The notes beneath the pieces were generated by a model. It made no database searches and was not told the DNA's origin. It saw nothing but the letters and a program-made list of their open reading frames with translations. 64,000 nucleotides of DNA from Aggregatilineales bacterium. Its GTDB lineage: Bacteria; Chloroflexota; Anaerolineae; Aggregatilineales; Ch27. Positions 25,128 through 25,622 of this stretch are shown piece after piece. The stretch is from positions 1-64,000 of the forward strand of contig JARKOQ010000096.1 of NCBI GenBank assembly GCA_029976005.1. The letters are read 5' to 3'. The first letter of the stretch is position 1; each line of letters starts with the position of its first letter. Position numbers and translations under genes: made by a program.

Positions 25128-25184
25128 CCGGAGCCGCCCCGCCCGCATCCAAACCAGACCGTCCGGTTATCCGGGAGATACGCC

Positions 25185-25622
25185 ATGTGGACCCGACTTC
25201 GCCGCTTTGCGCGCGCCCATCCCAATCTGACCGTGATCCTGCTCGTGCTGCTCGCCTTCGGGCTGGCACAGCTCTTCCTCGGCACCCGCGCCACGCCGAT
25301 CGACTCGCTTGAGGCGCTCCAGGCGCGGCTGGCGGGCGGCCAGCCAAGCGTGGTCGAGTTCTACTCCAACCTCTGAACGCAGTGCCTGATCAGCAAGCCC
25401 ATCGTGGACGGGCTGGAACGCGAACTGGCCGGGCAAGCGGACGTGATTCGTATCGATCTCTTGAGCGACCTGGGGCGGACCATTGCCGGAGCGTACGGCG
25501 TAAGGGCCGTGCCGACGACGCTGGTCGTCGATGGAATGGGACAGGTGGCGCTCTACACGGCGGGAATCCCCAACGCGTCGCAATTGCGCGAGGCCGTGCT
25601 CAGCCTGAACGCGGGCCAGTAA
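25185..25622 (+). CDS. Membrane-anchored thioredoxin-like protein, probable selenoprotein (UxxC)
   Basis: One 146-codon frame is interrupted only by TGA at 25374-25376. Residues 14-32 are a TM anchor (LTVILLVLLAFGLAQLFLG), so the domain faces outside. The thioredoxin part reads VVEFYSNL, then TGA, then TQCLISKP. Homologues I know have EFYSN followed by x-Cys-x-x-Cys-Leu, so the TGA falls exactly on the first catalytic cysteine and would make Sec64-x-x-Cys67. The frame then continues normally through AGAYGVRAVPTTLVVD, with the cis-proline loop, to a stop at 25620-25622. A hairpin at 25396-25414 fits a bacterial SECIS. CGGGAGA precedes ATG 25185. A Cys-to-stop pseudogene is the alternative. Confidence 0.75.
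25396..25414 (+). promoter_or_regulatory. SECIS-like hairpin after the in-frame TGA
   Basis: Five base pairs (25396-25400 with 25410-25414), an A-C mismatch, two more pairs (25402-25403 with 25407-25408) and an apical GUG triloop at 25404-25406. The loop begins 27 nt after the TGA and starts with G followed by U, as bacterial SECIS models require (loop within about 16-37 nt, G in the first two loop positions). Confidence 0.6.

Follow-up and report, generated by a model that had tools for sequence, protein, structure and literature searches.

Within the window, the 64,000-nucleotide stretch of an Aggregatilineales (Chloroflexota) contig analysed here, positions 25185-25622 very probably encode a thioredoxin-fold oxidoreductase that is anchored in the membrane and has a UxxC active site, in which UGA 25374 would be read as selenocysteine (Sec) through SelB and a downstream hairpin and the catalytic domain would face outward. 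The product is very probably a membrane-tethered thioredoxin with Sec replacing the first catalytic Cys. Standard gene callers would cut the gene at the UGA.

An in-frame UGA at a thioredoxin active site

Translated with TGA as U, the frame yields 145 residues and closes on TAA. Its only in-frame TGA is codon 64, in the context FYSNL-U-TQC-LISKP with 81 residues downstream, and the locus can be laid out as follows:

25173-25177, + strand: Shine-Dalgarno-like GGGAG, 7 nt 5' of the ATG, read from the sequence
25185-25622, + strand: predicted selenothioredoxin coding sequence, 145 residues with U64 and a TAA stop (translation, PF00085, AlphaFold model, PDB fold matches)
25221-25280, + strand: predicted N-terminal membrane anchor, residues 13-32 (helix in the model, hydrophobic in all orthologues)
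25374-25376, + strand: UGA for the predicted Sec64, first catalytic residue of UxxC (aligns with Cys of homologues)
25383-25385, + strand: TGC, second catalytic residue Cys67 (invariant alignment column)
25396-25414, + strand: candidate bSECIS hairpin, stem 25396-25403/25407-25414, GUG apical loop 25404-25406
25512-25514, + strand: cis-Pro110 of the thioredoxin fold, in the AVPTT loop (invariant alignment column)

The thioredoxin assignment is clear from both sequence profile and predicted structure. The protein scores 31.8 bits against Pfam Thioredoxin PF00085 (gathering cut-off 23.5), and an AlphaFold model built with the orthologue alignment as input has a mean pLDDT of 91.9 and finds thioredoxins as its top PDB fold matches. 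In the model an N-terminal helix (13-32) precedes the thioredoxin fold, and residue 64 opens the active-site helix. A sequence-only reading of this DNA had put the TGA precisely where homologues have the first CxxC Cys, followed by 81 codons and a normal thioredoxin C-terminal half including the cis-proline loop; translation and alignment agree with it on each point. A scan of the window for other in-frame-TGA genes carrying U/C motifs produced 180 mechanical candidates; among the matches listed, none besides 25374 stood out.

Conservation of the UGA codon across the order

We compared the gene with its orthologues in 61 related genomes and then in 154 genomes of the order. The same codon is TGA in 15 orthologues from 15 other genomes, so that outside one genus, g11, all 16 orthologues (the window copy included) carry TGA there. 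As in Sec-containing thioredoxins, the in-frame UGA stands at the first catalytic Cys and is matched by Cys in homologues. A search of the named genome contigs with the protein returned one weak match in Bacilli and no orthologue.

These comparisons bear directly on whether the TGA could simply be a true stop, the gene then being a recent pseudogene or the site an assembly error. The assembly is a draft in 268 contigs, and a UGA on its own cannot tell a stop from Sec. Against this, the TGA recurs at the same codon in the 15 other genomes with the downstream half conserved, and GC3 is similar on both sides of it (0.87 before, 0.83 after). Frameshifts and loss of downstream conservation in close relatives had been named beforehand as signs that would tell against a selenoprotein; the relatives have no frameshifts and retain the TGA as well as the half that follows it. 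Because 15 further genomes share the TGA, a sequencing error at 25374 is implausible, and on this comparison we rejected a pseudogene or assembly error, an explanation that we regard as highly improbable.

Genus g11 is the only one with Cys: the codon is TGT in its four orthologues (L019, L022, L023, L024). They encode the same anchored protein, with identities of 36-37% to the window copy, but differ from it in having TGT for TGA, in lacking the SECIS stem and, in some of the genomes, in having no SelA and SelB above cut-off. The g11 clade, itself fully supported, is nested within the Sec clade beside a same-family Sec form, although the forks that join it into the Sec clade have moderate support. 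This nesting favours a replacement of Sec by Cys in g11. Among the five g11 genomes sampled, SelA and SelB are above cut-off in G022 and G037 and not in G011, G017 and G027. G017 retains a tRNA-Sec of 76 bits (L043, G017:C15:49250-49342) with no SelA match and no SelB above cut-off, and the thioredoxin orthologue there appears degenerate; this tRNA is possibly a relic of the loss of the Sec trait. With the codon changed to TGT, the SECIS stem gone and SelA and SelB missing in three of five genomes, g11 offers a natural experiment in Sec-to-Cys replacement.

A hairpin retained with UGA and lost with Cys

The apical GUG (25404-25406) lies exactly 27 nt downstream of the UGA, seven of the eight stem pairs form, and the single mismatch, A25401.C25409, lies inside the stem. 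The hairpin has an energy of -8.5 kcal/mol over 27 nt and agrees with the published constraints on bSECIS elements, as quoted in PMC13188914. The bSECIS-like hairpin with a GUG loop described in the sequence-only reading is thus present at the distance given, with an A.C mismatch in this copy. Taken alone, it is weak evidence, no better than synonymous codon choice would give (P about 0.2): when the protein is recoded with synonymous codons, 11-19% of draws match it in folding and 16-20% in pairing. It is unremarkable in isolation, much of it being dictated by the encoded peptide KPIVDGL. An Rfam scan of the locus returned no family matching the hairpin and nothing relevant.

The evidential strength of the hairpin comes from comparison across species. 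The five pairs adjoining the closing pair are all intact in 33 of 39 Sec forms of the phylum versus 0 of 21 Cys forms (Fisher 4e-11), and in a pairing test of 16 orthologues and nine paralogues 91.5% of cells pair versus 26-48% in slid controls, with six of the eight pairs changed on both sides; the sequences are related and the trials not independent, so the Fisher and covariation figures overstate independence, and the set of 21 Cys forms includes more distant homologues. Median MFE is -9.1 kcal/mol in the 39 Sec forms versus -2.7 in the 21 Cys forms, and the loop begins GU in every one of the 39. One stem pair varies among them, as A-U (24), G-C (13) or U-A (1), and the sole break at that pair is the A25401.C25409 of the window copy. 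Covariation of the stem and its loss in Cys homologues, which we used as a functional test of the bSECIS, are thus both seen. The Cys orthologues of g11 are informative here, as they have no SECIS stem yet still encode much of the KPVVDGLE motif; loss of the stem from a largely retained motif points to selection acting on the RNA of the hairpin.

Selenocysteine machinery in the host genome

The host genome (G000, with the window on contig C230) is a draft of 4.76 Mb, 82% complete. The sequence-only reading had proposed a search for selA, selB, selC and selD, and all four were found: a tRNA-Sec with anticodon TCA at C226:4218-4312 (68.9 bits), SelB on C262 (358 bits, 637 aa, with selB as its best NCBIfam match), SelA on C243 (547 bits) and SelD on C163 (354 bits). 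SelB and tRNA-Sec, the pair that the Sec-decoding trait requires and whose absence that reading had named as grounds for refutation, occur in the same genome. SelB is likewise above cut-off in all 13 Sec-form genomes of the 61-genome sample. The SelD gene (L185, G000:C163:91000-96000) also contains an in-frame TGA (SCAGUAAK), so SelD is itself probably a selenoprotein, which would make it the second likely one in this genome.

This machinery also helps to weigh the possibility that a suppressor or reassigned tRNA inserts Trp, Gly or Cys at the UGA. UGA reassignment is known in bacteria, and a tRNA-Sec charged with Cys would yield the same codon pattern. However, TGA is the terminal stop of six of the 12 window genes checked, which makes it an ordinary stop here and argues against genome-wide reassignment, a possibility that we considered and rejected. 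Moreover, the position is always the catalytic Cys of CxxC, the genome carries dedicated SelA, SelB, SelD and tRNA-Sec, and the downstream hairpin is kept in UGA forms only. We therefore attach very little probability to insertion of another amino acid, and read UGA 25374 as a Sec codon.

Predicted topology and mechanism

In the mechanism that we propose, SelA would make Sec-tRNA-Sec using selenophosphate from SelD, and SelB would deliver it while binding the GUG-loop hairpin, allowing the ribosome to decode UGA 25374 as Sec. The Arg-rich N-terminus and single helix would then tether the thioredoxin domain on the outward side of the membrane, where the U64-C67 selenenylsulfide/selenolthiol pair may reduce disulfides or other oxidised thiols. 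We infer both the substrate and the reductant, the latter possibly a CcdA/DsbD-type carrier. The gene neighborhood offers no conserved operon partner that would point to a substrate: the arrangement of neighbouring genes (PepA, hutI and others) is common to family f1 only, and it names no redox partner.

The predicted N-in/C-out topology, with the thioredoxin domain outside the membrane, follows from the N-terminal anchor and the positive-inside rule. Sec insertion could also be real with the domain in the cytoplasm, the protein then acting as a membrane-bound thioredoxin of the ordinary kind, with thioredoxin reductase as its reductant, and the orientation is indeed predicted from charges only. 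Those charges (R4, R6, R7 and R10) lie directly before the single helix, however, and favour N-in/C-out; a Sec thioredoxin paralogue of the same genome is, in addition, lipoprotein-like and encoded two genes from a CcdA/DsbD-type gene. We consider a cytoplasmic domain unlikely, though less so than either of the alternatives to Sec insertion, and retain the outward-facing orientation as the prediction.

Relation to known selenoproteins

Sec-containing thioredoxins (PF00085, UxxC) are listed among the experimentally verified bacterial selenoprotein families (PMC13188914 Table 1; PMC9312934), in keeping with the earlier remark that UxxC redox selenoproteins are known. The window protein resembles them in its thioredoxin fold, in a UxxC motif with Sec first, in a UGA followed by a downstream bSECIS and in the Sec machinery of its genome; it differs in its N-terminal membrane anchor and apparent export. 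It also scores well short of the cut-off of the TIGR01068 thioredoxin equivalog (41.6 versus 96.8 bits). The SaoT (NF040730) and HUIPC-motif (NF047660) selenoproteins are, like the window protein, thioredoxin-like with UxxC, against which the window motif reads U-T-Q-C within YSNLUTQC; an NCBIfam scan of the window protein (E <= 0.001) gave no match to either. On these scores the subfamily falls below TIGR01068 and outside the NCBIfam models of selenothioredoxins.

The suggestion that Sec use is little described in this lineage stands only in part. Surveys and reviews on selenoproteins that we searched do not name the phylum Chloroflexota. A 2006 survey counted three selenoproteins in Chloroflexi (PMC1794560), though, Sec formate dehydrogenases and SelB have been reported there (PMC4959059), and in our sample SelA is above cut-off in 321 of 400 genomes of the phylum (80%). 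By that measure the Sec trait is unusually common in the phylum. In a 2016 survey, aerobes and anaerobes alike included Sec users (PMC5029168).

A Sec thioredoxin with UxxC is therefore already known as a kind. What is new here is a membrane-anchored, apparently exported subfamily, together with its range across the phylum, the frequency of SelA there and the Sec-to-Cys case of g11. The known kind would thereby extend to an anchored subfamily in a phylum where four-fifths of the sampled genomes have SelA.

Other Sec thioredoxins and a possible exported relay

In the host genome a CcdA/DsbD-type gene is joined to a redoxin domain, and near it lies L005, a second thioredoxin, lipoprotein-like and likewise with TGA as its first catalytic codon. 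This pair supports an exported thiol relay in the organism but does not link the window gene to it. A cluster (L200, G000:C262:122500-131500) comprises a rhodanese, SufE, a molybdopterin oxidoreductase, a lipoprotein-like TGA thioredoxin (WUSTC), an unassigned ORF and a CcdA/DsbD-redoxin fusion.

A haem-copper oxidase was found in the same genome, so the organism may be aerobic. It is tempting to speculate, with rather less than even confidence, that the order (and probably the phylum) harbors a radiation of exported Sec thioredoxins forming an extracytoplasmic selenol relay, so that Sec would serve at the cell surface of a potentially aerobic bacterium. The radiation would comprise the membrane-anchored YSNLUTxC, the two-helix YSNYULGC and the lipoprotein-like WUxxC families, one of the last lying close to a CcdA-redoxin fusion, molybdopterin oxidoreductase, SufE and rhodanese.

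The two-helix thioredoxins (L036, L037, L161, L169-L173) form a separate family with YSNYULGC-type motifs, in which several genomes have TGA and others Cys; in some members no clear hairpin is seen at the corresponding distance. A further paralogous thioredoxin of the host genome (L003, G000:C32:1846-5205) has TGA in a WUGYC motif on a long protein; its thioredoxin part is identified by Pfam, and its N-terminal part resembles an FHA domain by eye.
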